Origin: a virus
Length of the DNA stretch: 64,000 bases
Strand: one strand, 5' to 3'
IMG/VR virus record: IMGVR_UViG_3300030103_003222
Coordinates: 18,762-82,761 of that record
Position numbers and translations under genes: made by a program. The notes below the pieces were generated by a model that had not been told where the DNA came from, did no database searches, and saw only the letters and a program-made list of their open reading frames with translations. Below are positions 11,115 through 55,681 of this stretch, in pieces (the first letter of the stretch is position 1; each line of letters starts with the position of its first letter).

Positions 11115-11150
11115 GCAATCACCAAACACACAAAATGAGGAGTGAATAAT

Positions 11151-18375: not shown

Positions 18376-18906
18376 ATGACCGACCGATTGACTGCTTTCC
18401 ATTACCGCCGCAAGACCCCTGTTGATTACGCGCACTGGTTTGCGGAGCACATCGGGGTGGAGGGTATCGTCCTCGACAGGGTGCCTCGTGAGAAGGAGCG
18501 CATCGAAGACCTTGTGTTGACCCTGACCGCCCCGCACGAGTCGGAGATTCAGCCGACCACTGAGTCGAATGACCCGGAGAACATCCCCGACACCGAGGTT
18601 GAAGACATCCCCAACAGCGAGGACTTTCCCGCTGAACTTTCCTACGATGCCATGACGCTTGTTGAACTCCGCGAAGAGTGCAAGCGCCGTGGTCTTCCCT
18701 ACTACGGCACCAAGGCTGAGATTGCTCTCCGCCTAAAGCGTGACGATGAAGGGATTGAAGAGTCCACACCGACGCCGGAGGCCCCCGATGAAGAATCGGC
18801 TGCCGAGGAAGAAGTGGACGCCCCCGCTGATGAAGCGGCTGCGACCGAGGTGGAGATGAATGAAGACAGTGAGCGACAAGACCAAACTGCTGAGACAGAA
18901 GAATGA
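18376..18906 (+). CDS. SAP-domain protein with long acidic tail
   Basis: 176 residues. Residues about 90-125 (YDAMTLVELREECKRRGLP, then TKAEIALRLKR) are a clear SAP motif, a helix-loop-helix found in DNA-binding and virion proteins. The last 50 residues are almost all Glu, Asp, Ala, Pro and Thr. ATG follows TGAGGTGACAAC at the previous stop. The 3' end overlaps the next gene by 47 bases and contains that gene's ribosome-binding site. It shares its plan (HeH/SAP plus acidic tail) with 12794-13198. Confidence 0.65.
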   Translation: MTDRLTAFHYRRKTPVDYAHWFAEHIGVEGIVLDRVPREKERIEDLVLTLTAPHESEIQPTTESNDPENIPDTEVEDIPNSEDFPAELSYDAMTLVELREECKRRGLPYYGTKAEIALRLKRDDEGIEESTPTPEAPDEESAAEEEVDAPADEAAATEVEMNEDSERQDQTAETEE

Positions 18907-31100: not shown

Positions 31101-34100
31101 CTGAAAACATGCTAACGCCTGACCTGAAACGCGGCACGCAGGGGCATCACAGCGACTACCCTGCCCCGTATTCAAGCGGTGTTAAGGTCCAAGTGCCAAT
31201 TCCATTGGTGTTGCGTTTCGCACACCCCACTGCTCGATACAGCGACCACAGTGGGACCACAGATAGCAAAACCACCTACCTGATTTTCGGTCCCGGTCAA
31301 GCCTTCCCATTCACGGCTCAAACCGCTACCCCAGACAACAGCAGCGAACCACATCCCGGTCGTGCTTTGACTGTCGGCAACACATGGTCGAAGGTGCCAA
31401 CACACACCAGCGGTAAGCAGTTCCTGCACAACCACATTACCAATTCAACCGTCGGTTTCCTTCCCGAACTTCACTCCACGCAGGTCAACCGCTACCGGAC
31501 ACACTGGCGACAAACGATGAACTGGGAGCCTGCGCAGGGCAAGTCCAATGCCACGCGATTGTTTCAGCGTCCTGAGTCCGGCCGTTTCTATGGTGAGATG
31601 TTCACGTCAAACGGCGTGCTCAACAGCACCTCACTCGCTGACTACAGAACCGCTCATCCACTTCGGCATGCTGTGTTTATGGGATTCGGTATGGCCAGCA
31701 ATTCTGATTGGTGTTTCCACATGGACGGCGGTTATCACCCCGGTGGCTCGTGGTTGGACAATCAACTGACGTTCAATCCACCACACCCCAACGACAACAG
31801 CCGCGTAGCAAAAAGCGGCGTGGCTGGTAACGAACTACACCCAAGCGCATTCCGCGTAGCAGCGCCGTTGGCCAACCGGGTGCTCTACGGCTCATCTGCA
31901 TCTTTTGCCAGCGACACCATCGAGAGCGACGACGTCGAACTCGAATACATCGCTGTCGACGCCACGAAATGTCAGAATGGGGAGGAAATGGCTGCCCTGC
32001 TCGGCTCTGCCATCAACTCATTCCCCGGTGCTGGTGCACTGAAGGCTATGGGTGGGACGTTCCTACCCAGCATGGGGACCAGCAACCGGCAAGACCGCTA
32101 CGGTTGGGTCGAAGTCACGGGAGTTGTCGCCTATTTCCTCAGTGGAGAAGACACGGCTGCGAACGTCAAGACCAACGCCATCAAGGACAACTTCATGACG
32201 CTGGCCTTTTCCAGTCAGATTTTGGCTGAGCAAGTTCCTGAAAGCGGTTGGTTGCGAACAAGTGCCGACTTTGACAACGGGGTAGACAGCAACAGCGATT
32301 CTGCTGCTTTCGCACCCTATCACAGTCGAATCGTCAAACTTGACACGAGTTCGAGCCAATACCACGTCACCTTCTATCTCGGTAGCAATCGCATCGCTGG
32401 TTCAAAGGCCTTTGAGTCGCTTAAGACGTGGAAGGACTACCTCGACACAGGTGTTGCTGCAGGCAATGAGGTTGTTCCCAATGTAAGCAGTGCAACCAAG
32501 GTCTACGTGTGGACCAAAGCAGGTGTGCACCGATGGGACAACTCGGGTCGGCTTGAGGGCTATTCGCAAGTGCACTTCAGCGGCTTGGTCGACGCCATCG
32601 ACAGAACGCGGCCAGTTGGGCTACCGGGTTGGCACGGTGAACGCTATTCTTACCTGAACACGTTGGCCGTGTCCGGCGCGTATTCTGCCGGCCTTGGTGC
32701 ATGGCACCCATCCCTCGGCTTCTCTCCGTTCGGAGGTAGCATGGGTTGCGCGTCTGTGCTTGGTCACTTGCCTCACATCGCTCCCATGCCCAACAGTCCC
32801 GAAAGTGGTTTGCCCAACGACGGGAGCAACGGTGCTGCCGACTTCCCCGATGCCGACACACCCAATGGCCCGAACTATGACGCTGACGACGACGGCGACC
32901 AATCCTACAGCGCGAGTTTCGTTGACGGTAGTGGTAACAATAGCCCACCACTCACCACGTTTGACGAAAACGTGCACAAGGACTTACAGCACGCTCAAGG
33001 CGTATATGCCCGAGCCATGTTGGTCGTCGCTCACGAGTCAGAACTGGCTTTGGTGGCCAAGCGCGACCGTGACGGTATCAAGTGCGTTGGTGACTGGTTG
33101 CGCTCCAAAGATGCGAGCAGCATCACGTTGGCCGGCACAACACGTTGGGACGACCGGATTCACGGTCAGGACCGGTTTATCGCAACAGCAAACGCAGGTC
33201 CCAACATTGAGGCTCTCATCGTTGATGACACGGCTTTGCCAACGGTAAGCAGCCCTACAGCAGCCAGTGGTTTGGTGGCCTCACCGTTCAACGCTGAGTT
33301 CTTCTTGCACACGGCCGTTTCAGCAGACACTGAACTCGAAAATGCCGAGCCGTGCCGCAAACCAACTGGTGACTTGTTCCTCGACATTGACAAGAGCATC
33401 GGCTCTTTCTATTCCGCAAGCGCTGGCGCGCAGCGCAACATCATGGACCATTTCTATGAGGCAGGGAGCAACAACCCAATGGGTGGTTTGTGGGGCGGTA
33501 ATACGCAGAAAAACTCCTACTGGATGGGTGACGTCAACGGTTATGAGATGTTCAAGCGTTCGCCGGCCAAGAACTTCAGCATCGAGCACATCGTGTGGAA
33601 GCGCATGGACGGAGGTAGCCTGTCGCTACCCGCCATGAACGCGCGTGGGCTTGGTGCTGTGCCATGGGTCAGTCGCGTTGACGGTAGCAACGCCTACACG
33701 ACCGGTGAGAAATTGCTCGGTAACGTGCGCTTCTCGTTTGAGACGACGAACTCAGCGATGATGCCAATTATGCGAGCGCATGAACTCGGCCATCCTCAAT
33801 TGGCTGTTGACCCACCTGTCGAACTCCGTGATGTGTTGGAAATCCCCAACGAAGAAATGCAGTTTGACGACATGGTCGTTGTCGATGACACGGGACAATC
33901 GCATACGTTGAACGGTGGTTCACCGCTGGGTGTCGTCATTCGCGCCTTCCGCTCCAGCGGTGAACGACTCGCAAGTGGCCTCGCCCCATCTGTTGCAGGT
34001 GCTGGGCTTGAGCCAAACATGACCATCCGGCTACCCGACTCCAACGCGATTCCCGGCAACATTCTTGTTCGCAGTGGTTTTGACCGTGTGCAAGCCTATC

Positions 34101-37100
34101 AGACAGAAACCATGGGCGACGGGGGTATGATGAGCAACCCACAGGGCCTCGGTCAACTGTTTGATGGTTTGACTGGGCCGTTCGGCGCACCTGTGTTGTC
34201 TGAAGCAGGGTGGGAACACATCGACAAGGCAGGATTGGACAGCACCAGCAGCAAATGGGATGCAGCGACGAGCGACAAACCTCTGAGCAGCGCGTATGAA
34301 CTTCACGACCGCACTCTGTTTTTCCACGTCACGAAGATGGGACACAGTCACACCGACCGCTACCCAACGACCTACACGCACAGCGGAGGTCTGCAAAATC
34401 AAGCGCTAACGGTGTCTTCGTATGCGAGCAGCACTGCGATTTTGACCGCGTCCGCATCAATCACGACTGCGATTTTTGACGCCGACTTCGCCACGAAGGA
34501 AGTCATGGACGAAGGGTCGGGTAAGCGACGTAGGTTCCTACGTCTCGCCACCGCAACAGACAGCGTCGTCGTTTCCTACACAGGCATCAGTGGGGCTACG
34601 TTCACAGGAGTGGTTGGTGACATTGACTTCGACCAGTTCTTGCTCGACAACCCACCCGCTTCGTCCACCATCAACGTCACTCCGTCCTATTACGTGCCTG
34701 CTGGTAGCACCCGTTTCTTTGCAGCACGACGTTTGCGTGACCACGCGGAGGTCAGCGGTAACAGCCCCGACATGGCGCACACGCACTACTTGAACGGGAA
34801 CGCTGACACGACAGGCTATGCCCGCTATAGCGTGCCGCGTATGACCCCCATGCCCTACCCACGTATGGGCCACCATTTCGTCAACGCCACCATGCCGATG
34901 CTACCCGGACACTGGGCACACCCTGCCTATCAGGGCCTCTATTCAGGACATGAAGCGGAGCGACGTGCAACGTTGCGCGACCCTGACTACATTCGTCTGT
35001 TGGACCATACCGACCTTGACGACGCCACCTTCGACAGCAACGTCTCAGACTACCTCCACCCCCTCAATCCGCAAATCCGCATTGGGAGTCTGACCGCTAC
35101 ACCAAGCGGACCCAGCGATATTCACGGTGGTGCCTTCACTTTGATGTTTGAGACGAAGGTGCGCTTCGACGGCTACGGTGTTCTTGCCTCAAAGGGCACG
35201 GCAGGGGACATGAACAAGTTAGGAGGTCACTCGATTGTGTTGGAGGCTGGTGGAAACTACACGCAAGACGGTCACTTCCCTGACCCCGCTGAGGTCGGTG
35301 CCTACCAGATTGTCATTCAACCCAATCTACACGAGACACAGATTGCTGGTTTCCATCACAACAACAGCACGACTACCGCTTTGCCAAACGGTAGCAAGCG
35401 TGCGCTCACAGCCCAGCAGATTCACCTCGTGGTCGGTATCAAATATGACAGTGAGCGAGGTGGCTCGCCCATTGGTGGAGCAACGCTAATTCTTGCCGAG
35501 GCGACGTTGGCTGACGTGAGAGGTTGTGAAATCTTCGTGAATGAGGTCATCCTCGACCACGACCCCGACCACGGTAGTCACTTCACAAACATCCCACCGA
35601 TGCTGCTCTATAACCCACTGGGTGTGCAGGGCAGCGAATCCCCGACATTCACACGTCGAACTCAACCGTATCATCCGGGCATGTTTGAGGACAGCACGCC
35701 CGGACACACGCTAAACATCCCGTGGTGGAGCATTTTCCACAAAGTGGCACCTGACGACTCCTCGTCTACCGGTTTCAGGCATTTGGCGCTTTATCGCATT
35801 GACAACTTCTACCAGTTCTGCCGAGCGTCATCGGGCGCAGTGGCAGCACAACTGACGCTGGCTGGCTATCCCTCCATCAGTCCCGACATCTATTCTGACG
35901 TGATGGCTAACGTCTCACTCAGTCCTAAGTGCACCGTTACCGGTAGCGGCTCGGGCTACATCGAGGTTGACGATGCGTCGTTCTTCCCGAACAAACCAGC
36001 CTATGGGGAGCGTCTGCACTACGTTGACGCAAGTGGGAATGACAAGTTCATCACCTACACTCAACGTAGCGGCACGACGGCGAATGCGGCGACGATGAAC
36101 CAACCTGACCGCTTCGTCACCAGTGCAAGTTCACCCGGTGACGGAACGGTTCTGCGGTTGACGCGACCTTACAGTGAGCGCATGACCGACACGCTGTTCA
36201 CTCATTCCAAGAGCAGTGTGTTGACGCGCATCATGCCGCAAATGTTGCCGGGTTCACGCGACACGAACAGCCTCTATACGGCTGACGCGTTCTTGTGCAT
36301 GTGGCACCACAACCTCGGTCGTCCTCACACGTTCTATTCCGACAGTCCGAGGACATGGGGTGGCACAACAACAGACCGCGCTATCAACAAAGCAGCGTAT
36401 AACGGCATGCCCGAGCACTTCGAGACTGTCCATTACCACGCGGTGAACTACGCGGCAAGCCATGGCCCGTTCCATCTTGACTTCAAGACGCCCAAACCCG
36501 CGCAGCACTTGTCAGGCACCTTCAGTTCGGTCAGCGGTTCACCCTCTACACTGGTGTTTGGTGCAGACGTTTCAGGCGACGGTTTGGTCGGTAAGGTGCT
36601 GTTCACCGATGGGCGAGTCATTGGAACGGTTGCATCTGTTTCAACCACCGACGTCACGTTGACCGGTGACATCCTCTACACCCCCGCTGCTTCAACGACC
36701 GTCTACGTCGGTGCAGATGGTTCGGTTGACACGGCGGCCAACATTCACGCCATGACCGGTTATCAGGCTCAGGGTGGCACTTCAACGATGCTGACTCATT
36801 ACTGGCCGTGCGGTAGTCGAGGTGGGCCGCTGGTCAGCCGACTCGACGGCTATGCGGCTTGGGCTGCCGGGTGGCATGTGCCTCGCCAATATTCATCCGG
36901 TGGCGGTAAGCACTGGGTCGATGATGACGACAGCGGCTCATATTCTGTTTCAAGCGGCTTGAGTGACGGCTCGTTGGTTGCGTCTCGCACCTATCCGTTT
37001 GGCTATCGCTTTGGCCTACGCCAACCGTGGAATCGACCGCAGTGGGGCTTCTACGGTATGCGTGCACATCGTGAGGAGGGCCTGTTCAGTGGCTCACCAG

Positions 37101-38953
37101 CCAACGCCAATTATGCTGTGGGTAATGGCACTGGACCATTGGTCGCGTATGAGACTCAGACGTTGATTGCGAAGGGTGGAAGCAACAGCGACCAAACGCT
37201 GAAGCCGACATACGCCGGTATCATGGAGCGACAGACCAACTTCAGTGCCATGCTCGGTCCCGACAAGGCTGAGTGGCAGGTTCGCTACAGTGACGGTCGC
37301 CGCATGACTCGCTCATTCGGTTGCCCTGTGCGCACCATTCGCAACGGTAGCGGCGCTCCGCGCGATTGGTGGGGTGACAGTGCCGGTTTGGGCATCTCCA
37401 CGATTGATGCTGCTGTCGGGTATTACCTCGTTGACTGGTGGGGCAACACGCGTGGTGAAGACATTCGACGTGCCCCGGTGCGAGGCTTTGGTATTCGCCC
37501 AGCATGGGACGCGGGTGATGCGTATGAGTATGACCGCACCAACGGCCGCACGCCCTACGCTCGGCTCTATAACAACGGCAAACCGATTGTCAACCTCAAG
37601 GGTATTGCTGACAGCAGCGGTGACGTGCTGAGCAGTCCTACCGCCGTCGTGCCTCGCTTTGGCGGTCGAGTCAACAACACCAACAACAAAAGCACAACAA
37701 CGCTGGTTGACGTTTTCGCTCCCACCAACGCACTACGCGTGGGTGATATGGGTGGTGGTCGTGGTGTCCGTTATCCAACGCAGTTTAACGAAGACGTGCT
37801 GGTCGAAATCAGCGACGTGTATCAAGCGTCAGGTGTTGTCTTGTCAGGTAACACTGCTGAGCCTGCCTTTGGTCAAGGACTCATCCGTCCGCTTGACAGC
37901 GTGGTGCAACCTGACGAAATCAAGCGCGGCATCAGCCGTCGTCTTGGTGTTGACGAGGATGGTTTGCTGAAACCCGATGCCGTCGTCAGCGACCGAGTCG
38001 AAAGCGTCACTGGCACCAGCGTCCACAAGGATGCGGTGTCGCGCTCATCTCCTCGCATCGGTATTGACGGTGAGACGACTGAATCGCTGTTCAACGGTGT
38101 TTCGACAGACATGGTCGCCATTAACAGCGAAGCCCACAGCCTACACACTGACCTCGGCGTGGGGCAGCGAATTGTGCTTGAAGGCGGTATGCAGGCTGGC
38201 TCACAGACGCTTGGCGACTATGACCTGACGGCTCTGTCCTTCGCTGGTCAACCGCATGGTGGTGTCATGCGATTTACGCACACAAGCAACATCAAACCAA
38301 GTGGCGGCACCTATGTCCTTGAGTCGCGCTCTTTCGCTGCGCCGTTTGATGACACAGGATGGGGACGCTCAGGCTCCGGTAGCACCAGCAACCCGTTCCA
38401 AACCACAACTGCGACGTCTGCTCCGCACAACCTGACAGCCACCAAGGTCACGTTCATGCTGCGCCCAGTTCGACTGCTTGACAACCAACACGTTGCTGTC
38501 TTCCGTAGTCCACGTAATCTCGGCGGCTCGACACCTCAAGACGGCGGCACGGCTTACGGCGCGACTGCGGGTGGAAAATATGGTCTGTTCACGTATGAGG
38601 CGACGGACGCGACATCAACGAACTACGTGCGCACGACCATGCCTGACGGTGACGCTCCGTATCACCCGGTCTACTTGATGGAGAGTAGTAGCGACACGGT
38701 GCCTGTCTCCAAGGGTCCGAAACTACCGGGCACTGCTGTCGCTGGTTTTGACAGCGACTCGCTCAAGAGCGTGGTCACACGACTCGTTGTCAGTGAGAAC
38801 ACGCTACAGCACTTCCGTAGCGACGCACCTCGTCGCAGCCTTTCCAAGAAGGACTTCTCAGTCAAGCCTCGGTTCAGTCAATCGTTGCACAGCAAGGGGC
38901 ATAAAGGAGATGTGGACTACGGTGCATCAGACCACAGCGGTGACGCATCATGA
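22112..38953 (+). CDS. Giant tail-tip protein with LamG-like domains (5613 residues)
   Basis: One uninterrupted frame of 16.8 kb, about a quarter of the window. Near the N-terminus, residues about 68-230 have the pattern of a LamG/concanavalin-like lectin fold (FAIEAWVTPDCGG; LHLVAGVREGKVVLFVNG; FRGIIESLHISSAFS). A second such region occurs at about 4333-4480 (FTLMFETKVRFDGYGVL; LVVGIKYDSERGG). The rest is beta-rich, strikingly rich in His, Ser, Thr, Gly and Asp, and poor in Cys. Context after tape measure and distal-tail genes, and carbohydrate-binding-type folds, suggest a host-recognition or tail-tip structure. GTG 22112 has GAGGTGAT upstream. No enzyme motif or cleavage site was recognised. 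Confidence 0.75.
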   Translation: MPIMLQSNHALLFDGVTDSVIIPQGRNSRVGEKSEQGDIVSTNLLGEDLSGERGQGLIGDLFDRGFAIEAWVTPDCGGRVVQKDGQFLLSVGDVDTPGPAVFELNVVSDVGLEKVILRTAVETTAGYDGTVYPVNTFGGVDDAFNRFNSDDDGTALTLSQRPLLHLVAGVREGKVVLFVNGVLMASQELSQEFVLNSSNEPVFIGGHGGQFRGIIESLHISSAFSDEMTTRSAPLVSSRTACLMRFEEPISPISGTYTFSSIGSSSGLSTLNIGTTTAASLASALTGKTQTSGTVDFTKTPYSTGDYSVVDFTTSPGTKRTHLVPHVPFNLLINPGAVKRSTMKPNQSPPERVRLLSIDLGAGTALVSSVHLDFVNSTHDSRDVPSLHDGLRPVLHSRSSATGDDYFVVITGDSLIENGSGRPYQPPHFSTQIVDRTGQMVLDEGHFEQHGIVYSDRMATTASDSDNPFAVTWPSTLDASFQVGHSGRHTLNHVQGHHYLRQMADPQEEILDQRIDAADVLTLIYDAASKGIDKQFPMNSRVDYYRELGTLPLLTVVSSSTAYEEVDNGLTGASRDLIAIGGLSGGLRFDPSPFFLKGPVPEDYANVDAELRKHHLRPSATSRIAVLEVSGLSSYGMSPYVEIHYNAIDLTGASMGKTAPMLMVEKTIPAANTLLSGSTYVLDVIETALSSGATLHAPGGVISFGAPSDSAMSQFFASNTLMGDNSEGFESDDELDERFTPQNYSTIVANQPRKPPQNIAASHTTATHESQFNRLVIQQIDAPTETFTNRRAVHTDHTSPSNGQFDVGRTASASNVHEMFDIIDNHAVLSPNVKARYFVQPSNRTRTRQLTYARGAFTRPDDFNVAKVMLLMSPMRLRSVAEDESDEGSRATIVRCVGMNADAMTRDVSEIGSGSPNSHVVKEIEPNAPVVTVTLGGVGQGAYDTKPTFDPSPMARLPYSTRRGYSVYATSARVDLSASPQNFLNVVALNNDTDDLKTWATYPFPKKGRIYLKTGASAEYANKTGVSFHFANASIGSGTYVLSDGREVASFHEWVVGSGLIPQASSLSGTNSDVYPLGEVILGDGHFFAENAADDGTTVNDRMFQSMDNVTHDYQLGTQFASTRALVEIPLFNAQFFENVSEGVLPGPDNSLKLHVDPTMTAHTWNPSPVGRRFPEKAPSDRSARGAYAYAAENSEQVRGATIIHKAEIVSGKYRLYVDKPEIFPAAVTSAGAFSYVTNVVRYRRAFLSNGEWVIYENDPAANGFLRFEDEDWSTSENFLRDYEVGHSLMTAGGYESEALVPMESDILTSSSAMERRSEYYHDSASVKTQGGNVDYGLRQYVSAVEFKAGPKSNPHANRTVAKRASGTVLSVTPLGTTANFGGLVLLTFSEEDFAKFPKVPVPTDTNNLITFTTGDYHYELTVPSPDGSIRRFIYWGSAANVGLRSSDMTPENLGTSIVVQPVFTALAATTPNYLLATSADFIAGEKATLTKRSFDIGFSVNPVDVALETTLNISDSFRPGGTGVRKSWTVANVASTSSMTVTNTSSLFLQSNTLGLTVKVNDYLYAETNTGSAVTVVRYLGRVTAIADYSASSSLPLTITLDGSMTSATQSNINSEIAGGSLTIHLRVGCHDVMKNDDEAVLNRQWLSPYAQGGLRHGDTVWANMTYNNPHAVEGMFAKSRGVFNEALVWTGFNDGDGSLTTSARTSIPLENFLIGDSCLETAQNYAQHVNKTIELNYTNLGLSTDLAPKVAFVDPYLANEEHARVLLYDVAHDREFVAFQDLHMQVQTSAKVAEIGWQREFTATNIVDSSTEIDLVPYSIGFNGASQHAFLTQIDVAAGFLSQNKYARSTIRSRFMESAYAHDIANHVAISLLNPIASGTAPTNIVRSLTNVTRIAQFGKAHGHFVHTGYHKAGPFGNRSLGDSILPRTTDGSAIPYWADKMHTYTRTSFSDTGSFLLKLREHRESVTGASFRDPSTLFDTPDGTRVVPAFLALKGIRSEALSLTTHDEARLQHLKQWTDMDFTRRLTIDLGEVGARIGGTSILAAANEVVRLINQAGAKQGRTHARRPSEQYPGESESLDLTRVGARAADGIRDPASSHINADFAATGSTHDPAVWWDEDKAFESHDKGTHMGYVRAHIGRIVQDTNGNEGFSIVVHSTVPGATGRNFCVWLDNSKGQSRYTPKFLIGHGGRYRTFWCQPDELSGENMHPAPMPLNKHGRPFAPVTTLQGYVVPDDSGVEFKASSDFAPRGDETSDPVMRAVSMATGSGQSHNTVNTESLEVEGFNTSYVTGLRTGTNAVARVNFGGLAASGVPGFAPDAGKWGFGRKGDVRIAERYGPAKDTSASSTAATTYSSYVPSTDVREEAIGNAPLYAFRFIDHRGVGHGIRFIYRSMGESFALDETLLPSTIDDEIAVFIDDRDVGQGGFTIGKHMHGIGDATGRFGAAGTNTSLMSWRGNRWNPVPSPSAAYDCNAAYDSSSNKITVTLQAPYNACPHFDVLGYMGFPLSQGLLQLSDPFVDSSMNGSQGHVFSYTHRTREGSSGTHVFHGIQGSTFTPSHTHSGGSVSANSSSVFGTGSINIRALISSTVNWTTLVTDELLAAITAAAINLADPNVDEGVPFDCRDMFASDGRTFGEWGVAEDAIRIRAFNTAGGGIRPLSDFFSASLHRDFAIQSAHVEFGDIEEIEVDNGGISLPSTSRAATDASIDNGLRAECGYLPFTVLQVFTKSKGSNSNTASPVLVDSRNNPVDPDEWHRRLIGYTFTANAGDHVLPRVDNPSVLLLAAEVTSDPIQLTTNQVWHFAQPAGEEGTSISSKTKIASFGSVSNLHVQNGDVLVTSQNGANSKTHLSLVTGTKTSTFPASDPASNAVAQRFGDTARAFRTAGSRVLGSVFSRPMLFFRGGRDSIDHSVPLFFGGGFSGVTLDINDGTKNDYSEFFTHPYAAGPTGVAGVQHANEFLSSYSMLDCNAMMAFFPGTPLLNQHRGNINPPFFNSENMLTPDLKRGTQGHHSDYPAPYSSGVKVQVPIPLVLRFAHPTARYSDHSGTTDSKTTYLIFGPGQAFPFTAQTATPDNSSEPHPGRALTVGNTWSKVPTHTSGKQFLHNHITNSTVGFLPELHSTQVNRYRTHWRQTMNWEPAQGKSNATRLFQRPESGRFYGEMFTSNGVLNSTSLADYRTAHPLRHAVFMGFGMASNSDWCFHMDGGYHPGGSWLDNQLTFNPPHPNDNSRVAKSGVAGNELHPSAFRVAAPLANRVLYGSSASFASDTIESDDVELEYIAVDATKCQNGEEMAALLGSAINSFPGAGALKAMGGTFLPSMGTSNRQDRYGWVEVTGVVAYFLSGEDTAANVKTNAIKDNFMTLAFSSQILAEQVPESGWLRTSADFDNGVDSNSDSAAFAPYHSRIVKLDTSSSQYHVTFYLGSNRIAGSKAFESLKTWKDYLDTGVAAGNEVVPNVSSATKVYVWTKAGVHRWDNSGRLEGYSQVHFSGLVDAIDRTRPVGLPGWHGERYSYLNTLAVSGAYSAGLGAWHPSLGFSPFGGSMGCASVLGHLPHIAPMPNSPESGLPNDGSNGAADFPDADTPNGPNYDADDDGDQSYSASFVDGSGNNSPPLTTFDENVHKDLQHAQGVYARAMLVVAHESELALVAKRDRDGIKCVGDWLRSKDASSITLAGTTRWDDRIHGQDRFIATANAGPNIEALIVDDTALPTVSSPTAASGLVASPFNAEFFLHTAVSADTELENAEPCRKPTGDLFLDIDKSIGSFYSASAGAQRNIMDHFYEAGSNNPMGGLWGGNTQKNSYWMGDVNGYEMFKRSPAKNFSIEHIVWKRMDGGSLSLPAMNARGLGAVPWVSRVDGSNAYTTGEKLLGNVRFSFETTNSAMMPIMRAHELGHPQLAVDPPVELRDVLEIPNEEMQFDDMVVVDDTGQSHTLNGGSPLGVVIRAFRSSGERLASGLAPSVAGAGLEPNMTIRLPDSNAIPGNILVRSGFDRVQAYQTETMGDGGMMSNPQGLGQLFDGLTGPFGAPVLSEAGWEHIDKAGLDSTSSKWDAATSDKPLSSAYELHDRTLFFHVTKMGHSHTDRYPTTYTHSGGLQNQALTVSSYASSTAILTASASITTAIFDADFATKEVMDEGSGKRRRFLRLATATDSVVVSYTGISGATFTGVVGDIDFDQFLLDNPPASSTINVTPSYYVPAGSTRFFAARRLRDHAEVSGNSPDMAHTHYLNGNADTTGYARYSVPRMTPMPYPRMGHHFVNATMPMLPGHWAHPAYQGLYSGHEAERRATLRDPDYIRLLDHTDLDDATFDSNVSDYLHPLNPQIRIGSLTATPSGPSDIHGGAFTLMFETKVRFDGYGVLASKGTAGDMNKLGGHSIVLEAGGNYTQDGHFPDPAEVGAYQIVIQPNLHETQIAGFHHNNSTTTALPNGSKRALTAQQIHLVVGIKYDSERGGSPIGGATLILAEATLADVRGCEIFVNEVILDHDPDHGSHFTNIPPMLLYNPLGVQGSESPTFTRRTQPYHPGMFEDSTPGHTLNIPWWSIFHKVAPDDSSSTGFRHLALYRIDNFYQFCRASSGAVAAQLTLAGYPSISPDIYSDVMANVSLSPKCTVTGSGSGYIEVDDASFFPNKPAYGERLHYVDASGNDKFITYTQRSGTTANAATMNQPDRFVTSASSPGDGTVLRLTRPYSERMTDTLFTHSKSSVLTRIMPQMLPGSRDTNSLYTADAFLCMWHHNLGRPHTFYSDSPRTWGGTTTDRAINKAAYNGMPEHFETVHYHAVNYAASHGPFHLDFKTPKPAQHLSGTFSSVSGSPSTLVFGADVSGDGLVGKVLFTDGRVIGTVASVSTTDVTLTGDILYTPAASTTVYVGADGSVDTAANIHAMTGYQAQGGTSTMLTHYWPCGSRGGPLVSRLDGYAAWAAGWHVPRQYSSGGGKHWVDDDDSGSYSVSSGLSDGSLVASRTYPFGYRFGLRQPWNRPQWGFYGMRAHREEGLFSGSPANANYAVGNGTGPLVAYETQTLIAKGGSNSDQTLKPTYAGIMERQTNFSAMLGPDKAEWQVRYSDGRRMTRSFGCPVRTIRNGSGAPRDWWGDSAGLGISTIDAAVGYYLVDWWGNTRGEDIRRAPVRGFGIRPAWDAGDAYEYDRTNGRTPYARLYNNGKPIVNLKGIADSSGDVLSSPTAVVPRFGGRVNNTNNKSTTTLVDVFAPTNALRVGDMGGGRGVRYPTQFNEDVLVEISDVYQASGVVLSGNTAEPAFGQGLIRPLDSVVQPDEIKRGISRRLGVDEDGLLKPDAVVSDRVESVTGTSVHKDAVSRSSPRIGIDGETTESLFNGVSTDMVAINSEAHSLHTDLGVGQRIVLEGGMQAGSQTLGDYDLTALSFAGQPHGGVMRFTHTSNIKPSGGTYVLESRSFAAPFDDTGWGRSGSGSTSNPFQTTTATSAPHNLTATKVTFMLRPVRLLDNQHVAVFRSPRNLGGSTPQDGGTAYGATAGGKYGLFTYEATDATSTNYVRTTMPDGDAPYHPVYLMESSSDTVPVSKGPKLPGTAVAGFDSDSLKSVVTRLVVSENTLQHFRSDAPRRSLSKKDFSVKPRFSQSLHSKGHKGDVDYGASDHSGDAS

Positions 38954-40167
38954 GTCAAGAACCCATGACCGATGCTGAATATCAGCAGTGGTTGCAGGGG
39001 CAAATTGCCTCTACCATGCGGCCGGGGTTCCAAATGCGTGAGGGCCAGCAATTAACGCTCAATGATTTGTTTGGTGTGCAACCGGCTGACGACAATTTCA
39101 ATCTGAGAACATTTGCGAGTGGGGAAAATCCTAACGCGTGGTGGTTTGACAACCGACCTCCTAACGCTCAGAGTTCGCGAGGACCTACCGACCACAGGGG
39201 GAAAATCGCACAAGCCATGCGGTCCTCCATGTATGCTGAAAACGCCACAAGAGTGCCCACCGCTCAACCAGTGGAAAACACGCGCAGACCCGTCGCCATT
39301 GTGGAGCGCAGAACCCCGAAAACACTCAGCCCCCGTGACCATGACGGTGTGAGGCATGCTTGGAATCCTGACCAATACATTAGGAGTTTCAGACTGGTGG
39401 ACGATGATGGAAAAACGCTGTCTGTTATTGATGATGGTGGGTATAGGCAACCGGGACGCGGACATCAAGAAGCGATTCGGGGCTTTAGCGGTCAAACGTT
39501 TGGTCCCATGCGTAGAGGCCACTACCGCAATTTGATGGAAGGTTTGATTCGTCACGGACTCAATGTTCGCTCAAATGACCGCAACTCGATGTCGCATCCG
39601 TTCCACACCAAGTTGCAGCGAACACTCCCTCCTGACATGACCGTTGAAGCGAGAATGTTTCGCGGCGACGGAGATGTCGAACACTATGATGAAGGAGAAT
39701 ATGACCCTTCAGATGTAAGCACAGATGACGTTTTGCTCTATGAACGAATCATCCCATCCTCACCTGAAAACTGGGGCGACCTGAGCGGCCCAACACGCAG
39801 CCAATTCCCGCTCTTTGTGCAACACAGAGAGCGTCCGCCTTATCATGAGCACCCCGAGTCGGAGAAATCGCAACAAACGCAGTTGTTTGCCCCGAGACGA
39901 CCAATCGGCGTATCACCGTCTACGTGGGCGGCCACAAATCGAACTGAGCGTAGGAAACAGGCTGAGCGCGATTTGAGAGAGCGCATGGACAGATGGTTTA
40001 GCCGGCAACAGCAGGGGGAGCAGGCGCTACGGCAGGGCGGCGTCTCGCTGGACGAAACATTGGATTTGGGTCTGTTGCCCGGAATAAGCCAACCACCGAT
40101 GCCTCGAATGGAGTATGAAACAAACCCTCGCTTCGTAGGTGTTAAATCTACACCTGATGTGATGTGA
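38950..40167 (+). CDS. Unknown tail-region protein, weakly GNAT-like
   Basis: 405 residues; ATG overlaps the giant gene's stop (ATGA), with GCGGTGA in its last codons. The N-terminal 130 residues are polar and probably disordered. Residues about 175-235 (GHYRNLMEGLIRHGLNVRS, then MSHPFHTKLQ) recall the acetyl-CoA-binding helix and following strand of GNAT acetyltransferases, but the Q/RxxGxG/A loop is not clear. The C-terminus is charged. A tail-tip accessory or modification role is possible. Confidence 0.5.
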   Translation: MSQEPMTDAEYQQWLQGQIASTMRPGFQMREGQQLTLNDLFGVQPADDNFNLRTFASGENPNAWWFDNRPPNAQSSRGPTDHRGKIAQAMRSSMYAENATRVPTAQPVENTRRPVAIVERRTPKTLSPRDHDGVRHAWNPDQYIRSFRLVDDDGKTLSVIDDGGYRQPGRGHQEAIRGFSGQTFGPMRRGHYRNLMEGLIRHGLNVRSNDRNSMSHPFHTKLQRTLPPDMTVEARMFRGDGDVEHYDEGEYDPSDVSTDDVLLYERIIPSSPENWGDLSGPTRSQFPLFVQHRERPPYHEHPESEKSQQTQLFAPRRPIGVSPSTWAATNRTERRKQAERDLRERMDRWFSRQQQGEQALRQGGVSLDETLDLGLLPGISQPPMPRMEYETNPRFVGVKSTPDVM

Positions 40168-40169
40168 CC

Positions 40170-41015
40170 ATGCGCGTGACCATCTACGAAGTCGGACCTC
40201 GTGATGGGCTACAGTCGCTGCCACATGTCGTGCCTGTTGAACAGCGGCGGCAACTCATTTCATCGCTCTATAACGCAGGCTTGCAGCACGTCGAAGAGGT
40301 GTCTTTTGTCCACCCCAAATTGCTACCGCAGATGGCTAATGCAGAGGACGTCTACAGCGGTAAGGGCGATGCCCTTGTGCTCAACAAGCGGGGTCATGAG
40401 CGAGCCGTCGCTGCGGGTGTTGAGCGCATCAACATCGTGCTTTCGCCTTGTGAGTCGTTCTGCATCAACAACATGGGTCGCAGGTATGACGAATTGGTGT
40501 TGAACTATCGGACGTTTATGCAAGACGTTCCGAAGGACAAGGTGCGTGTCTACCTATCCATGGCGTTCGGCAGTCCTGACAGCGGCGTGTTTGATGCTCG
40601 CACGCTGCGTCGCTGCATCAGCGATGCCAAAATGTTCGGTGACACCATCGTGTTCGCAGACACCGTCGGCGTGGGCACAGCCAACGACGTTTGGGAAATG
40701 TCGCGCTTAGCGCAAGACTACGGTATGCGTCCCGCCTTGCATCTGCATCATCGTGGTGATGAGGGTAAGCCGCTCACGCTCGTGCGTGCGGGGATTCTCG
40801 CAGGTATCAGCGAGTTTGACGCCAGTATCGGTGGGCTGGGAGGATGCCCATTCGCAAGGGGAGGTGGGGCAAACATCGCCACTGAATCATTGGCTCGTCA
40901 TCTTCACGCTTGGGGTCTTGAGACTGGTCTTGACAGTCGGGCATTGAGGAGTGCAGCGGCTCTTGCCTTTACCATGAAGCATCCACAGCCGCAGATAACA
41001 GAGGCGCACTGCTAA
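40170..41015 (+). CDS. HMG-CoA-lyase-like enzyme (DRE-TIM metallolyase family)
   Basis: 281 residues, near the family length of about 300. Family enzymes split 3-hydroxy-3-methylglutaryl-CoA to acetyl-CoA and acetoacetate using a divalent metal. Signatures, numbered from ATG 40170: YEVGPRDGLQ with R11 and D12; SFVHPKLLPQMANAEDV; FADTVGVGTAND; HLHH with H191 and H193 as metal ligands; and GLGGCPFARGGGANIATE with the lid cysteine C226 and metal ligand N235. All residues known to be catalytic in HMG-CoA lyase seem present. Relatives (pyruvate carboxyltransferases, aldolases, isopropylmalate synthases) lack this combination. It lies within the tail module between 38950-40167 and a hub-like gene, in normal spacing. 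In archaea HMG-CoA is the mevalonate-pathway precursor of membrane lipids, so a role in lipid or CoA metabolism is possible but unproven. GTG 40164 is an alternative start. Confidence 0.85.
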   Translation: MRVTIYEVGPRDGLQSLPHVVPVEQRRQLISSLYNAGLQHVEEVSFVHPKLLPQMANAEDVYSGKGDALVLNKRGHERAVAAGVERINIVLSPCESFCINNMGRRYDELVLNYRTFMQDVPKDKVRVYLSMAFGSPDSGVFDARTLRRCISDAKMFGDTIVFADTVGVGTANDVWEMSRLAQDYGMRPALHLHHRGDEGKPLTLVRAGILAGISEFDASIGGLGGCPFARGGGANIATESLARHLHAWGLETGLDSRALRSAAALAFTMKHPQPQITEAHC

Positions 41016-41041
41016 AACGCACCACCGCTTGGGGTGAAGTG

Positions 41042-42424
41042 ATGGCTTACCTTGGCAGCAAGCGCAGGTCCAGCGACTATAACGCTGTGATGAAGCAAGT
41101 GCGCAAGCCGGTGTTTGTCGACAACGCCCTACACCTCGGTGAGTTCACTGCTCAAGGCGTTGACAAAACCAAGGTCACGGTGCGGCAGCGTAAGGCTGCA
41201 AACTACCCTATTGCGACAGAGCGCACCTTCACCATCGAAGAGGGACAGGACGAGATTACGCTCACGCACACTGGTGCACCGGGTCACTCGACGACCACTG
41301 CACGATATGACGACACAGCACCCATGCTCTACAGCAGTGAAAACCCATCGCAACGCCTACGCCTCGGCTCTACGCTCAGCACCACCGACGGTCTACGCAT
41401 GTCGGTGCGAAACAAGCGCGGCATGACGTTGAGCGAACTTGGCTTTGAAGGCGACACAGGACACGTCGCTTTCCCGTGCGATGCTGGCTTAAGAACTACG
41501 GACATGGCAATGCGACTTGGGCAGGACATTGACTCGCTCACGTCGGTCAACCTGACCGGTCCCCGCACTGCTCAGTCAGGTAACGCGCGCCGTCGTCACA
41601 GCACGACCTTCGTTGCGAAGAACTTCAAAGCCGTGAACCTGCTCACTGCGTTGCGTTTCCTCGGTCGGCACGACAACCGCGTTGCTTTGTTCGACCGCTT
41701 CGGCAACCTCATCTATGCGCCGTTCACTTACGGTGGACCCGGTCGCATCGTTGAGGCCAGTTTGCGCTCAGGCGGAGCCAACACTGACCCAACCGACGAA
41801 AGCGTCACTGCTGTAGCGGTTGTCGGTATTCCTTTGGCTGTGAACGAGAGAGCCTTTGCCAAAGTGCGAGACTCAGAGCGAGAAAGCGGGCGTGGAGCCA
41901 ACATCATCGAAGAACCGCAGCGCATCGAGGACTTCACCGTTAGCAGCAACGAGGGCGCCCGTCGTGTCGCGCGTGCGGTGCTCAAGGCCAACAACCTGAG
42001 CGCTGGCAAGAAGACCAGTGCAGGCCATCCTGACGCATTCGATTTGCGACCCGGTAGCGTCATCGAATATGAGAACGTCAAACGTGTGTTGACTGAAGTG
42101 AGGCACCGCCTGAGTTCCAACGAATCTGACCTCGTTTTCCTCAATGTGGACATCGGTATCGAGGGTGTGCTGCAGGGCATCAGTGAGGGTATAGGGAACG
42201 TCGACCTTGAGCCTGAGACGCAGGAGCAGGTCCGCGAACATGTGCTGTCACTGTTCGGAGATGTCAAAATTCGCTCCATTGCCATCGTCACGCTTAGGGG
42301 GCATGGCGATTCAGGTATGCTTGTGGGGCGTGCTATGGGTCGTGGCATCATCGGTGGCACGTCGTCATCGCAGACCATTGGTGGTAGCAAGACGCAGGCC
42401 ATTGTGTTGAGAGGTGAAAACTGA
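41042..42424 (+). CDS. Probable baseplate hub protein
   Basis: 460 residues from ATG 41042, preceded by GGGGTGA. Alternating strands with PGSVIEYENVKRVLTEVRH followed by a short helix and VDIGIEGVLQ are reminiscent of tail hub proteins (T4 gp27 and phage D-protein class). The C-terminal 40 residues are Gly/Ser-rich (GRAMGRGIIGGTSSSQTIGG). It lies between the lyase and fibre genes. The hub assignment rests on pattern and context, not on a diagnostic motif. Confidence 0.5.
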   Translation: MAYLGSKRRSSDYNAVMKQVRKPVFVDNALHLGEFTAQGVDKTKVTVRQRKAANYPIATERTFTIEEGQDEITLTHTGAPGHSTTTARYDDTAPMLYSSENPSQRLRLGSTLSTTDGLRMSVRNKRGMTLSELGFEGDTGHVAFPCDAGLRTTDMAMRLGQDIDSLTSVNLTGPRTAQSGNARRRHSTTFVAKNFKAVNLLTALRFLGRHDNRVALFDRFGNLIYAPFTYGGPGRIVEASLRSGGANTDPTDESVTAVAVVGIPLAVNERAFAKVRDSERESGRGANIIEEPQRIEDFTVSSNEGARRVARAVLKANNLSAGKKTSAGHPDAFDLRPGSVIEYENVKRVLTEVRHRLSSNESDLVFLNVDIGIEGVLQGISEGIGNVDLEPETQEQVREHVLSLFGDVKIRSIAIVTLRGHGDSGMLVGRAMGRGIIGGTSSSQTIGGSKTQAIVLRGEN

Positions 42425-42766: not shown

Positions 42767-45418
42767 ATGGCAAACCCAATCTCAGGACACACAAAGGGCA
42801 GTAACGAGGGGCTTACCGACGGTGAGCATATCATCTCGCCCTCGCTGACGAACATCTACGAGGGTCTGCATGGCAACGGTATTCTGTCGCCATATGACAC
42901 GGCCTACACTGGTGCGAACCGCAACACACCTGCGTCTTTGCCCGGAGCCATCAGTCAAGGTGCCAATGCTTCAAAGGTGACAGTCAAGGCCTTTGAGGCC
43001 ATCATTGACGGCATCCTGTATGACTTCGGCGGAGGCTCTGATATCACCATCACGCTCGGCTCTACGGGCGACCACCTAAGCGGTGGCTCAACCACCAGCC
43101 TGACCAGTGGACAGGAGTGTCTGTTCATCATCATCGCGACTGCTGCCGGTGTGAAGTTCACTCAATCCAACATCATCACAACCGCTGTAGGCGCATACCC
43201 GTCTGTCACGGGCACTTCGGCTGCATACCTGACGGATGGCAAAGGAACGCAGAACCAGCAGTCGTTCGTGTTGGGGACGGTGCGTGCGACCAACTCAGGA
43301 GGCTCGACCGTTGGTCCGGGCATCCAAGCCCTCTCTGAGTTCAACGACAAGCGTGTATTCCTACGCCCAACACCTCTCTTCTTCTCGCCCGTGACCAAGG
43401 GCAACGTCGGCACTACGACGGGTATCAACAGCCACACAGCGCTTGCCGGTGCTCACACAGGCGAATCGGGTGACTTGGGTGATACGGGCGTGATTTGGCA
43501 GTCGTTCAACAGCGACAACGAGTCAATGCTGTATTACACTCGCAAGGACAGCAGCAACCGCCACACTCACCTGCTTGGGCCGACGAACATCAACGTCAGC
43601 AGCCCAAGCGGCAACCTGACGTTCACGTTCGACAGCGACCAAGTCTTTGTGTTGACGCCGACCACGACCATCAACCTGAACCCCAGTGGCACGTTCCCAC
43701 CGGGACATACGGTCTTCGTGTCTGTGCCCAGCGGTAGCACCGTCACCTTCGACTCGACTGGTTTGAACTCCAGCGTGGTTGCGACTGAAGCCACCATGTT
43801 CGTCTATGACGGTGCGAACTGGAAGAAGGTCATGGTGAGTGGCACCATCAGCCCAGCCTCCAGCGGAGCCAGTGGCATTGTGCAACTGTCCGACGGCGCG
43901 GGTGGCTTCACAAGTGACACGACGCTCTCATACGACACTGCGGCTAACGAACTCATCGTTAACGGCAAGTTGACGGTTAGTGGTTTGATTGACCCAACTG
44001 GGCTTGAAATCACCCCACAGTCCAGCAACCCTGCTGCTGCTGATGGGAGTGTTGTGGATGCTAACACGTTGTGGCTCGACAGCACGGCGAGTAACCGATT
44101 GAAGCAGGGTTCGGCTAACGTCATCCGTGCCACGGACAGCGTCACTGAACTGAGCGACGTGAGCAGCGTTGGCTCCGGTGCCATCATCACTGGTTCCGAG
44201 CGTAGCAAATTGAGCGGCATCGCGACTTCCGCTACGGCGACAGCAGCGCCAGCAATCGAGGACAACAGCGGCACGCCTGCGTTCGCTACAGGCATCACGA
44301 AGGGCGGAGTGCAGTCGCTTCTCAACATCGCTGACGGGGCGACTGCAAACGCAGGCACAGTCACGAGTGTCGCTACGACGGCACCCATCACGGGCGGCAC
44401 CATTACGGGGTCGGGCACAATCGGTATCAGCCCAGCATCGGCAACTGACGCAGGTTCAATGAGTTCTGCCCACTACTCTAAATTGGAAGGCATCGAAGCG
44501 GCTGCAACGGCAGACCAAACAAACGACGAGATTCGGGCTGCGGTCGAAGCAGCCACAGATTCCAATGTCTTCACCGACGCCGACCATAGCAAGTTGAACG
44601 CTATCGCCACAGGCGCGACCGCATACGCAGATGCAGACGCCATCGCTGCCGTTGAAGGAGAAGCAACATTGGCTTTAACGGGCGATGTTACCATCGCCGC
44701 AGGCAAAGGTCTGACTGTTGACGGGACTACCTTACACGTTGACGCTGCCAACGACCGAGTTGGCATCGGAACTGCTTCACCCGCTACTGCCTTGCACGTT
44801 GAGGGGGCAAACCACATCATCAGGGTCAAAGACACGTCTGCCGGTGATACCGCACTTACCCGCACAATGGGTGGACTTGAATTGTCTGCTGCGGGAATGA
44901 ACACCTCGTCGAAGTTCGGCGTCCCCATCAAGTTCATGTCCACGGACAGCGCTTTCACTACGGAAAACCCGAAGTTCTTGGCGGCGATTGTGCCTATCGC
45001 ACGAGAGTCCTACACCGCCGACACAAAGGGTGGAATGGCAATCGGGTTCGCGGTGACGGCTAACACCGCCGGGGCTTCAACCGTTCCTCAAGTTGCGATG
45101 ACCCTCGACTCAAACGGAAGGTTGGGCATCGGGACTGGCGGGCCACAGGCTCCTCTCCACGTCACAGGAACCATCAGGCAAACAACGGTAACGAACGCTG
45201 TTCTTGTCGCGAATGCTAACGGTGACTTGGCGGCTGCGAGTAATCTTGCTGACTTAGCCTATCTCGCCCCCGGTGGTGCGCAAACCGACACCTTCACGCC
45301 CACAACCTCTGCTGCGAGTTGGGTAGCGCCCGCCCCCACGACAATCCAACAGGCCATCGAAAGGATTGCGGCATTTGTTGTGGCTCTTCCGGGCGCACCA
45401 GCGCAAATCCCACCATGA
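42767..45418 (+). CDS. Tail fibre protein
   Basis: 883 residues, Ser/Thr/Gly/Ala-rich and Cys-poor. The N-terminal 250 residues may be the tail-attachment part. The middle holds trimeric-fibre motifs: SGIVQLSDGAGGF, SGTIGISPASATDAGSM, HYSKLEGIEAAATADQTND, HSKLNAIATGATAYADADA and twice VGIGT or LGIGT followed by LHVEG or LHVTG. Such repeats are typical of phage fibre shafts, which form beta-helical trimers. The C-terminus (TTIQQAIERIAAFVVAL) is a short helix; no S74 chaperone domain is seen. It is the last + strand gene. Confidence 0.8.
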   Translation: MANPISGHTKGSNEGLTDGEHIISPSLTNIYEGLHGNGILSPYDTAYTGANRNTPASLPGAISQGANASKVTVKAFEAIIDGILYDFGGGSDITITLGSTGDHLSGGSTTSLTSGQECLFIIIATAAGVKFTQSNIITTAVGAYPSVTGTSAAYLTDGKGTQNQQSFVLGTVRATNSGGSTVGPGIQALSEFNDKRVFLRPTPLFFSPVTKGNVGTTTGINSHTALAGAHTGESGDLGDTGVIWQSFNSDNESMLYYTRKDSSNRHTHLLGPTNINVSSPSGNLTFTFDSDQVFVLTPTTTINLNPSGTFPPGHTVFVSVPSGSTVTFDSTGLNSSVVATEATMFVYDGANWKKVMVSGTISPASSGASGIVQLSDGAGGFTSDTTLSYDTAANELIVNGKLTVSGLIDPTGLEITPQSSNPAAADGSVVDANTLWLDSTASNRLKQGSANVIRATDSVTELSDVSSVGSGAIITGSERSKLSGIATSATATAAPAIEDNSGTPAFATGITKGGVQSLLNIADGATANAGTVTSVATTAPITGGTITGSGTIGISPASATDAGSMSSAHYSKLEGIEAAATADQTNDEIRAAVEAATDSNVFTDADHSKLNAIATGATAYADADAIAAVEGEATLALTGDVTIAAGKGLTVDGTTLHVDAANDRVGIGTASPATALHVEGANHIIRVKDTSAGDTALTRTMGGLELSAAGMNTSSKFGVPIKFMSTDSAFTTENPKFLAAIVPIARESYTADTKGGMAIGFAVTANTAGASTVPQVAMTLDSNGRLGIGTGGPQAPLHVTGTIRQTTVTNAVLVANANGDLAAASNLADLAYLAPGGAQTDTFTPTTSAASWVAPAPTTIQQAIERIAAFVVALPGAPAQIPP

Positions 45419-45688: not shown

Positions 45689-47200
45689 TCAACCTTCCTT
45701 GCGACCGATGATGTCGTCAATGCGCAGCATAGCGGTCGTGACCTCTGTTGCGGTCGTGATAGCGCTGCGGACGAGCGTTTCAGGCTCGTAGACGCGCCAC
45801 TTAGCCATGTGAACGATACCGCCGTTGTGCACGTCAGGACCGTAGCCATAGCCTTCGTGACGCATGGCGAGAACAGTGTCCAAACCTGAGTGTCCGGCGT
45901 TCTCAGCGATGGTGCTGGGAATGATTTCCAGCGCGTCAGCGAAAGCGTCAATCGCCATCTGTCCTCGCCCACCGACCTCCGATGCACGGGAGCGTAGACG
46001 AGAAGCCAGTTCAAGGTAGGCGGTGCCGCCGCCGTAGCAGAGCCTGTCGCCGTTATGAATGAGCGAGACGACACCGAGGGCATCATCGAAGCCACGTTGC
46101 ACCTCATCAAGTGTGGACTGTGTCGCACCAAACAGCACGAGTGTGGCCTCACTGGAGGCGATGTCGCTGGCCACGAAGAGGTAGTCCACGTCGTTATACC
46201 GGCGGCGGTCAACGACCGCTCTGCTAACGTCCATACCGTCCTCGGCCATATGGTAGGGCTTGGAGCCGAACTCATTTCCGAGGCGCTTCATGGTGCTCTC
46301 AGGCACGCGCCTGACGACGAAGATGTTGCGCTTTCGCAGGTATTGCACGACCGTGTCGTGCACACCGTCGCGCACGAACACGATGTTGGGCTGCGCTGCT
46401 TCGATGCGCTGCGCGGCCTCCAGCAAATGCTCGCGGCCTGCATTCTTCACCGCGCCGTATGACGTAGCATCGACCTGCACCTGCACGTTTCCGTCTTGCT
46501 TCTGCTCTTCCAACCCGCTGTTGATGAGCAGAGCGGACAGCGATTCGGTGTCCGTGAATTGACCGTCAGTAGTGACCACGTCTTTGTTGATGACGACGCC
46601 CTCAAACAGATAGGAGTCTTGCAGTGAGCCACCGGGAGCGGCCAGCACGCGCACGTCCTTGACATCACCAACGGCTTCAATCGTCTTGACGCAGAGTTCA
46701 GCCACAGCGTCTGTAGCAGCCTCCAACGACTTGCCCGTAATCGCCGTGCTTGCGATGTCCGTAAGTCGGGGAGAGTCAGTGCGTTTGCTACCTTTGCCGG
46801 AAACGTCGGGGAGCGTCTCCAATTCAGGAAGTTCCTCCAACACCATGCGCAGTGCGTCGCTGTAGCCACGTCCGATGATGTTGGGGTGTAGGCCCTTGTC
46901 GAAAAGCGTCTCTGCGTTGCTGAGCAACTGTCCTGCGAGCACCACACTGCTGGTCGTGCCGTCGTAGCAGTTCGTCTCCTGCACCTTGGCTACTTCAACC
47001 AGCATCTTCGCAGCCGGGTGAGCGCTATCGAGTTCGCGTAGAATGGTCGCACCGTCGTTCGTGACGATGACGTTGCCGCCACCGTCAACCATCATCTTGT
47101 CCATACCCATCGGACCAAGCGTGGTCTTCACGGTCGCGACAACGCGCTTCGCTGCCTCGATGTTCAGTCGCTGTGCCTTGTGATTCGTGTTCTCTGTCAT
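45689..47200 (-). CDS. Group II chaperonin (thermosome subunit)
   Basis: 503 residues. Group II chaperonins form double rings that fold proteins with ATP. Conserved motifs: TLGPMGMDKMMVD (28-39), NDGATIL (48-54), DGTTS with D80 for ATP binding, GGGTAYLELASRL in the second equatorial half, and RGFDDALGVV carrying the hydrolytic Asp region. It is shorter than cellular subunits (about 540-560): the apical region is abbreviated and the Gly/Met-rich tail is absent. The usual GDGTT reads YDGTT. ATG overlaps the exonuclease stop, with GAGGTGG within its last codons. Likely use: folding of the virus's large virion proteins, either alone or mixed with host subunits. Confidence 0.93.
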   Translation of the reverse strand: MTENTNHKAQRLNIEAAKRVVATVKTTLGPMGMDKMMVDGGGNVIVTNDGATILRELDSAHPAAKMLVEVAKVQETNCYDGTTSSVVLAGQLLSNAETLFDKGLHPNIIGRGYSDALRMVLEELPELETLPDVSGKGSKRTDSPRLTDIASTAITGKSLEAATDAVAELCVKTIEAVGDVKDVRVLAAPGGSLQDSYLFEGVVINKDVVTTDGQFTDTESLSALLINSGLEEQKQDGNVQVQVDATSYGAVKNAGREHLLEAAQRIEAAQPNIVFVRDGVHDTVVQYLRKRNIFVVRRVPESTMKRLGNEFGSKPYHMAEDGMDVSRAVVDRRRYNDVDYLFVASDIASSEATLVLFGATQSTLDEVQRGFDDALGVVSLIHNGDRLCYGGGTAYLELASRLRSRASEVGGRGQMAIDAFADALEIIPSTIAENAGHSGLDTVLAMRHEGYGYGPDVHNGGIVHMAKWRVYEPETLVRSAITTATEVTTAMLRIDDIIGRKEG

Positions 47201-55677: not shown

Positions 55678-55681
55678 GGCG

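Follow-up and report, generated by a model that had tools for sequence, protein, structure and literature searches.

Why should a tailed virus carry, between the genes for its tail, what looks like an enzyme of hydroxymethylglutaryl-CoA (HMG-CoA) metabolism? The gene lies in an IMG/VR contig that is 82,761 bases long; we analyzed its positions 18762 to 82761, a stretch of 64,000 nucleotides (the window). An initial annotation had read it as an HMG-CoA-lyase-like (HMGL) enzyme inside a tail module and had considered its position unexpected for a metabolic gene.

The virus and its late genes

The features of the window that define the virus and the surroundings of the HMGL gene are as follows.

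11142 to 12329, + strand: major capsid protein (PF17236; haloviruses at 31-32%)
22112 to 38953, + strand: giant 5613-aa tail-module gene, an open reading frame homologous to c4, which is upstream of HMGL in relatives
38950 to 40167, + strand: 405-aa gene, fast-evolving, overlapping the HMGL start by 4 bases
40164 to 41015, + strand: HMGL gene, 283 aa from GTG (PF00682, NF004283, AlphaFold2 model, Foldseek)
41039 to 42424, + strand: 461-aa tail-module gene (cluster c7, in 26 loci)
42767 to 45418, + strand: tail fibre-like protein, 883 aa (phrog_21412 tail fiber, E=2e-17)
45689 to 47200, - strand: thermosome-type (group II) chaperonin (PF00118, E=2e-114), the nearest gene of the opposite-strand replication module
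53299 to 55704, - strand: family B DNA polymerase (PF00136, E=5e-40; best phage matches haloviruses)

The capsid protein matched archaeal tailed viruses only, and the chaperonin scored 403 bits with NF041082 versus ~82 for GroEL. A thermosome has been described for clade 1 of Marine Group II viruses (Nishimura et al., PMC5332604), and replication and structural modules on opposite strands are the magrovirus layout (PMC10768690). The genome thus has the gene content of a magrovirus, namely, an archaeal-type HK97 capsid, PolB, a chaperonin and two opposite-strand modules. Judged by gene content and layout against the published description (type ON649702), the virus appears to be a magrovirus-type archaeal tailed virus, and its host would be a member of the Poseidoniales (Marine Group II), an assignment that rests on the magrovirus literature.

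The location of HMGL in the tail module was confirmed, as the same neighbour genes are found in L113, L114 and L185. The 4-base overlap translationally couples HMGL to the upstream 405-aa gene, and the 461-aa gene begins 23 bases past it, marking the junction that holds HMGL in 15 loci. Family profile searches gave no match for either the 405-aa or the 461-aa gene. Among 20 proteins neighbouring HMGL, none had a confident Pfam family and there was no recognisable metabolic neighbour, and for ten neighbour proteins (some among the same 20) the PHROG matches were weak only. A scan for promoters and terminators, which does not cover archaeal promoters, returned no more than expected by chance. 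In L115, L117, L118 and L195, a homologue of the 405-aa gene precedes HMGL, and homologues also lie near HMGL in several relatives that have HMGL in their variable region.

Several other genes of these late regions deserve mention. The 405-aa gene has a paralogue in the same record (L210:1595-2653, +), with which it shares a domain carrying a conserved RRQGxYRxLxxxLxxxGxxxxSxxRNxxSxPFHxxF signature; this domain recalls an acetyltransferase-like fold. The 5613-aa gene (22112-38953, +) occupies 16.8 kb, one fifth of the genome record. Between the portal and prohead-protease genes lies a 1933-aa gene (3892-9693, +), in which residues 1515-1611 resemble an ATP-dependent DNA ligase domain with a score that is weak but above the threshold, a strange place for a ligase. 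Finally, a nearly invariant peptide, [GS]EPM[DNE][IL]A[FMW][QR]LLK, is present in 38 late-region proteins of magrovirus loci L113-L210, with 73 occurrences in all, up to four per protein, between otherwise unrelated stretches (examples are L150:3242-5845, L123:5448-8060 and L121:555-2942). In the record of the window, there is only a degenerate version, ASEAMDAAWRMLIK (L210:4173-5390). The peptide looks like a processing, targeting or packaging signal.

A full-length HMGL protein with an intact active site

Two in-frame starts are available for HMGL, GTG at 40164 (283 aa) and ATG at 40170 (281 aa), with the stop at 41015; the ATG is the likelier, since it agrees with the starts of most relatives. 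The protein matched the PF00682 profile at E=1.1e-20 over positions 2-258 of 260, and its 74.6 bits exceed the curated cut-off of 29 bits over the full length, which places it in the HMGL-like superfamily. It also matched the NCBIfam model for HMG-CoA lyase, NF004283, at E=2e-58, although its 197.8 bits do not reach the naming cut-off of 246 bits. Matches to solved HMG-CoA lyases were found at E=9e-37 (Pseudomonas aeruginosa, 2ftp) and E=3e-34 (human, 2cw6), with ~30% identity to the human and bacterial enzymes. An AlphaFold2 model built from 45 input sequences had a pLDDT of 93.9 and a pTM of 0.91, and when it was compared with the PDB by Foldseek, the best match by E-value was human 2cw6 (E=1e-25, TM 0.88), with HMG-CoA lyases ranking above all synthases and aldolases of the superfamily. 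We concluded that 40164/40170-41015 encodes a full-length HMGL TIM-barrel protein and that a chance match is excluded. We file it as HMG-CoA-lyase-like and not as a proven HMG-CoA lyase (EC 4.1.3.4).

The initial annotation had listed Arg, Asp, both His, Cys and Asn as catalytic positions kept in the gene. The roles of the individual residues are well established for human HMG-CoA lyase, and in the window they correspond to the following sites, all on the + strand.

40200 to 40205: Arg13-Asp14, counterparts of the catalytic R41 and the metal ligand D42 of the human enzyme, invariant in the 124 of 124 viral copies that span the site
40293 to 40295: Glu44, the counterpart of human E72, conserved without exception in the viral copies (126 of 126)
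40740 to 40748: His193-Leu-His195, whose two His residues correspond to the metal ligands H233 and H235 and are invariant in the viral copies (126 of 126)
40749 to 40763: virus-specific beta7-alpha7 loop (HRGDE), which has lost [DN]-T and is 2-3 residues longer
40845 to 40874: GGC228PF loop containing Cys228 (C266 in the human enzyme) and the metal ligand Asn237 (N275), neither of which varies in the viral copies (126 of 126)

The equivalent of D204 is invariant as well among the 126 distinct viral copies, so that the counterparts of R41, D42, E72, D204, H233, H235, C266 and N275 are all present in the window, and the catalytic positions named at the outset proved to be invariant across the viral set. 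R165, Y167 and S169 are also kept in the viral copies (R165 in 125 of 126, with K in one). These three residues are present in the four solved HMG-CoA lyases that we compared and in their close relatives but are lost in most paralogues that adjoin CoA-transferase genes. With R165, Y167 and S169 kept and the nearest solved relatives all HMG-CoA lyases, the HMG-CoA-lyase-type identity first proposed from motifs held up under both profiles and a confident structural model; aldolases and carboxyltransferases, like synthases, fell clearly behind. Other positions set the viral proteins apart. Human S201 is Val in every viral copy, the CoA-contact positions N46 and K48 are variable, the C-terminal tail is shorter than in cellular proteins, and the [DN]-T that directly follows H-x-H in all 26 cellular sequences compared is absent, being replaced by H-R in the window (HLHH[K/R/N/G] is commonest among the viruses). 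Because of the Val at S201, the variability of N46 and K48 and the loss of [DN]-T, the substrate or the kinetics may differ from those of cellular enzymes.

The register of the H-x-H motif needed checking, because in a gapless alignment H-L-H is displaced by two residues and an R falls where the metal ligand His235 should be. We rejected this alternative on the invariance of the two His residues, the variation in loop length and the predicted position of the strand. The residue at the gapless 235 position varies among K, G, R, N and T in the 126 copies, and the loop after HLH differs in length among the viruses, being shorter in L090, for example. Profile alignment to Bacillus subtilis 1ydo aligns HLH with HFH. 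Predicted beta-7 spans residues 187-194 in the viral model and 202-207 in a cellular homologue (L005), and the two strands are centred identically on H-x-H only in the HLH register, the loop before beta-7 being two residues shorter in the viral model and the loop after it 2-3 residues longer. The H-x-H motif as originally read is therefore correct.

Plasmid loci L212, L214, L215 and L218 carry genes annotated as hydroxymethylglutaryl-CoA lyase that adjoin CoA-transferase or isopropylmalate-dehydratase genes and that wholly or partly lack R165, Y167 and S169. In these loci, the annotation probably hides other acyl-CoA lyases.

Retention, selection and relocation among related viruses

The initial annotation had treated the gene as an oddity, which was not borne out, as HMGL is frequent in the group and has already been reported for magroviruses. 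A search with the capsid protein returned 578 related stretches. Of 50 capsid-related records, 23 carry a PF00682 gene; many of the 50 are fragments, and three were fetched via HMGL itself, so that these three count for HMGL by construction. Among the ten records longer than 80 kb, all fetched via the capsid gene, eight carry a PF00682 gene and two do not. A scan with the viral HMGL alignment found relatives in at least 188 viral contigs, and a second scan from another HMGL subgroup found 168, overlapping the first set. Presence in related viruses, as the initial reading had required, is thus seen both in the 188 contigs and in the long capsid-related records, and because related viruses carry HMGL so often, it probably matters to infection.

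The gene is under strong purifying selection. Between the window virus and its close relative L114, dN/dS was 0.05 for HMGL, versus 0.50 for the 405-aa gene and 0.44 for the tail fibre, and the HMGL median over 17 pairs was 0.12. HMGL therefore has the marks of an auxiliary metabolic gene: it is of cellular type, it is absent from some relatives and its dN/dS is 0.05-0.12. Tree distances of HMGL and capsid were correlated across 19 viruses (Mantel r 0.50, p 0.001), which suggests that HMGL has largely been inherited within the group, with some exchange. The viral copies formed one clade with a support of 100 against 14 and then 26 cellular sequences, a set drawn from Pseudomonadota genomes, plasmids and solved structures. 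The stem of this clade is long (0.69-0.88), and several supports near the viral branch, where its sister group would be placed, are between 55 and 72. A profile search of genome contigs for HMGL returned a single bacterial locus.

In contrast to its sequence, the position of the gene is not conserved. Counting redundant loci, HMGL precedes the 461-aa gene in the tail module, as in the window, in 15 loci; in 19 others it closes the tail module, and it lies before the terminase in 10, elsewhere within the tail module in 1 and in the variable region before the conserved late cluster in 59, and 5 loci could not be placed. On the HMGL tree, at least 8 moves are needed, as opposed to 18 when the labels are shuffled, and HMGL arrived at the tail junction on at least two occasions. 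The relocations took place almost always among late genes, and the gene was kept each time. The position in the tail, which had seemed unexpected, is therefore one among four or more sites in the late genes and looks secondary. The fact that HMGL keeps moving and is yet retained argues that it is cargo selected for its activity and not a structural part; we rejected an obligate tail component, since relatives have HMGL at other places. Its continued presence among late genes suggests that it is expressed late.

Probable function and comparison with known systems

From the fold, the residues and the selection, the protein is very likely a working HMG-CoA-lyase-type metallolyase. We infer its activity, substrate, timing, host and purpose as follows. 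The protein would be produced in the late phase alongside the virion proteins and would act in the host cytoplasm, where the equivalents of D42, H233, H235 and N275 would hold a divalent metal that binds a 3-hydroxy-3-methylacyl-CoA, most likely HMG-CoA, and R41 and C266 would support its retro-Claisen cleavage to acetyl-CoA and acetoacetate. HMG-CoA derived from the degradation of leucine, or destined for mevalonate and isoprenoid lipids, would in this way be returned to the acetyl-CoA pool while virions are being made. As a whole, this reading (a working DRE-TIM metallolyase of the HMG-CoA lyase type, carried by magroviruses as an auxiliary metabolic gene, made late and acting on HMG-CoA in the host cytoplasm) seems to us probable. 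HMG-CoA itself is our best guess for the substrate, weakened by the virus-specific loop, the change of S201 to Val and the NF004283 score below the naming cut-off.

The enzyme may serve to feed HMG-CoA back into acetyl-CoA or to block the synthesis of mevalonate and isoprenoids, and the diversion of lipid precursors suggested in the initial annotation is plausible. In 14 records, we found no PF00368, PF00378 or PF01144 gene and hence no HMG-CoA reductase, enoyl-CoA hydratase or CoA-transferase, partner enzymes of leucine or HMG-CoA metabolism that would have told the two purposes apart. A late shut-off of the mevalonate pathway, in which HMGL destroys HMG-CoA and halts isoprenoid membrane lipids, perhaps easing lysis, rather than feeding carbon, is a special case of the preferred reading with a different purpose, and our confidence in the one overlaps with that in the other; we give it limited credence. 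Archaea make their membrane lipids through HMG-CoA and mevalonate, the gene has survived at least 8 relocations while remaining among late genes and the viruses lack catabolic partner enzymes, all of which speak for a shut-off. However, HMGL is not linked to any gene for lysis or lipids, the depletion of lipids may proceed slowly relative to infection and a supply of acetyl-CoA may be the purpose instead. The main texts of two Poseidoniales genome papers mention neither HMG-CoA nor mevalonate. To our knowledge, no virus has been described as attacking its host by switching off the archaeal mevalonate pathway, and we regard as rather doubtful the full form of the idea, namely, that a near-core magrovirus gene is a diverged, virus-specific HMG-CoA lyase that drains HMG-CoA late in infection and switches off isoprenoid membrane synthesis.

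It is also conceivable, but in our view unlikely, that the same fold and chemistry serve a different substrate, the protein being a lyase (or a reversed synthase) for another branched 3-hydroxyacyl-CoA. Many genes annotated as HMG-CoA lyase probably act on such compounds, and annotated relatives adjoin CoA-transferase and isopropylmalate-dehydratase-like genes, not leucine genes; the long stem of the viral clade, the altered beta7-alpha7 loop, the Val at S201 and the variable CoA-contact residues point in the same direction. On the other hand, the viral copies keep R165, Y167 and S169, which those paralogues have mostly lost, and the nearest solved structures are all HMG-CoA lyases. A structural or moonlighting virion protein, that is, a former enzyme built into the tail, as has been claimed for some T4 baseplate enzymes, would fit the place of HMGL between tail genes and its 4-base overlap in the window virus but is very improbable, given that the catalytic residues are invariant in 126 copies and that the copies of most relatives lie outside the tail module. 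An assembly artefact or host contamination, conceivable for a metagenomic record with no isolate, has a negligible chance of being the explanation: the same arrangement at the same position, sought in related viruses, is found again in three further contigs that, by their names, come from three IMG/VR source datasets, the HMGL start codon overlaps the preceding gene, the viral homologues form a clade and G+C is uniform across the region (0.53-0.60), so that we rejected misassembly.

The presence of an HMG-CoA lyase in magroviruses is already published. The enzyme is named as an auxiliary gene of the Aoguangviridae type virus in the ICTV profile (PMC10768690) and is listed among magrovirus auxiliary genes by Xu et al. 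2023 (PMC10160649). These accounts, which agree with ours in enzyme name, virus group (Magrovirales, viruses of Poseidoniales) and the view of a modulator of host metabolism, mention it briefly, and Xu et al. call the auxiliary genes together sporadic, whereas we found HMGL in eight of ten long capsid-related records. What is new here is this prevalence, the invariance of the site in 126 copies, the virus-specific loop and the repeated relocation within the late region. Retention in most long genomes through at least 8 relocations, together with the invariant site, suggests that there is a step in host metabolism that these viruses need to control. Leucine breakdown and the synthesis of archaeal membrane lipids branch at HMG-CoA, and HMGL therefore offers an assayable handle on how uncultured viruses reprogram their hosts.

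Compared with cellular HMG-CoA lyases (human HMGCL, 2cw6/3mp5; P. aeruginosa, 2ftp; B. subtilis, 1ydo; Acinetobacter baumannii, 6nds), the viral protein shares the fold (TM 0.88-0.90) and R41, D42, E72, R165, Y167, S169, D204, H233, H235, C266 and N275 but differs in the Val at S201, the loss of [DN]-T with a longer loop, the variable N46 and K48 and the shorter C terminus. The only other close viral structure in BFVD is an HMGL-like protein of Klosneuvirus KNV1 (A0A1V0SKU2; TM 0.87, 27% identity), which, unlike the archaeal tailed virus studied here, is a giant virus of eukaryotes. Homocitrate, citramalate and isopropylmalate synthases have the DRE-TIM superfamily and the metal site in common with viral HMGL but match it at no more than 64.6 bits, versus 213-239 for HMG-CoA lyases, and the GGCP cysteine loop of HMG-CoA lyases, which is present in the viral protein, sets it apart from these synthases.
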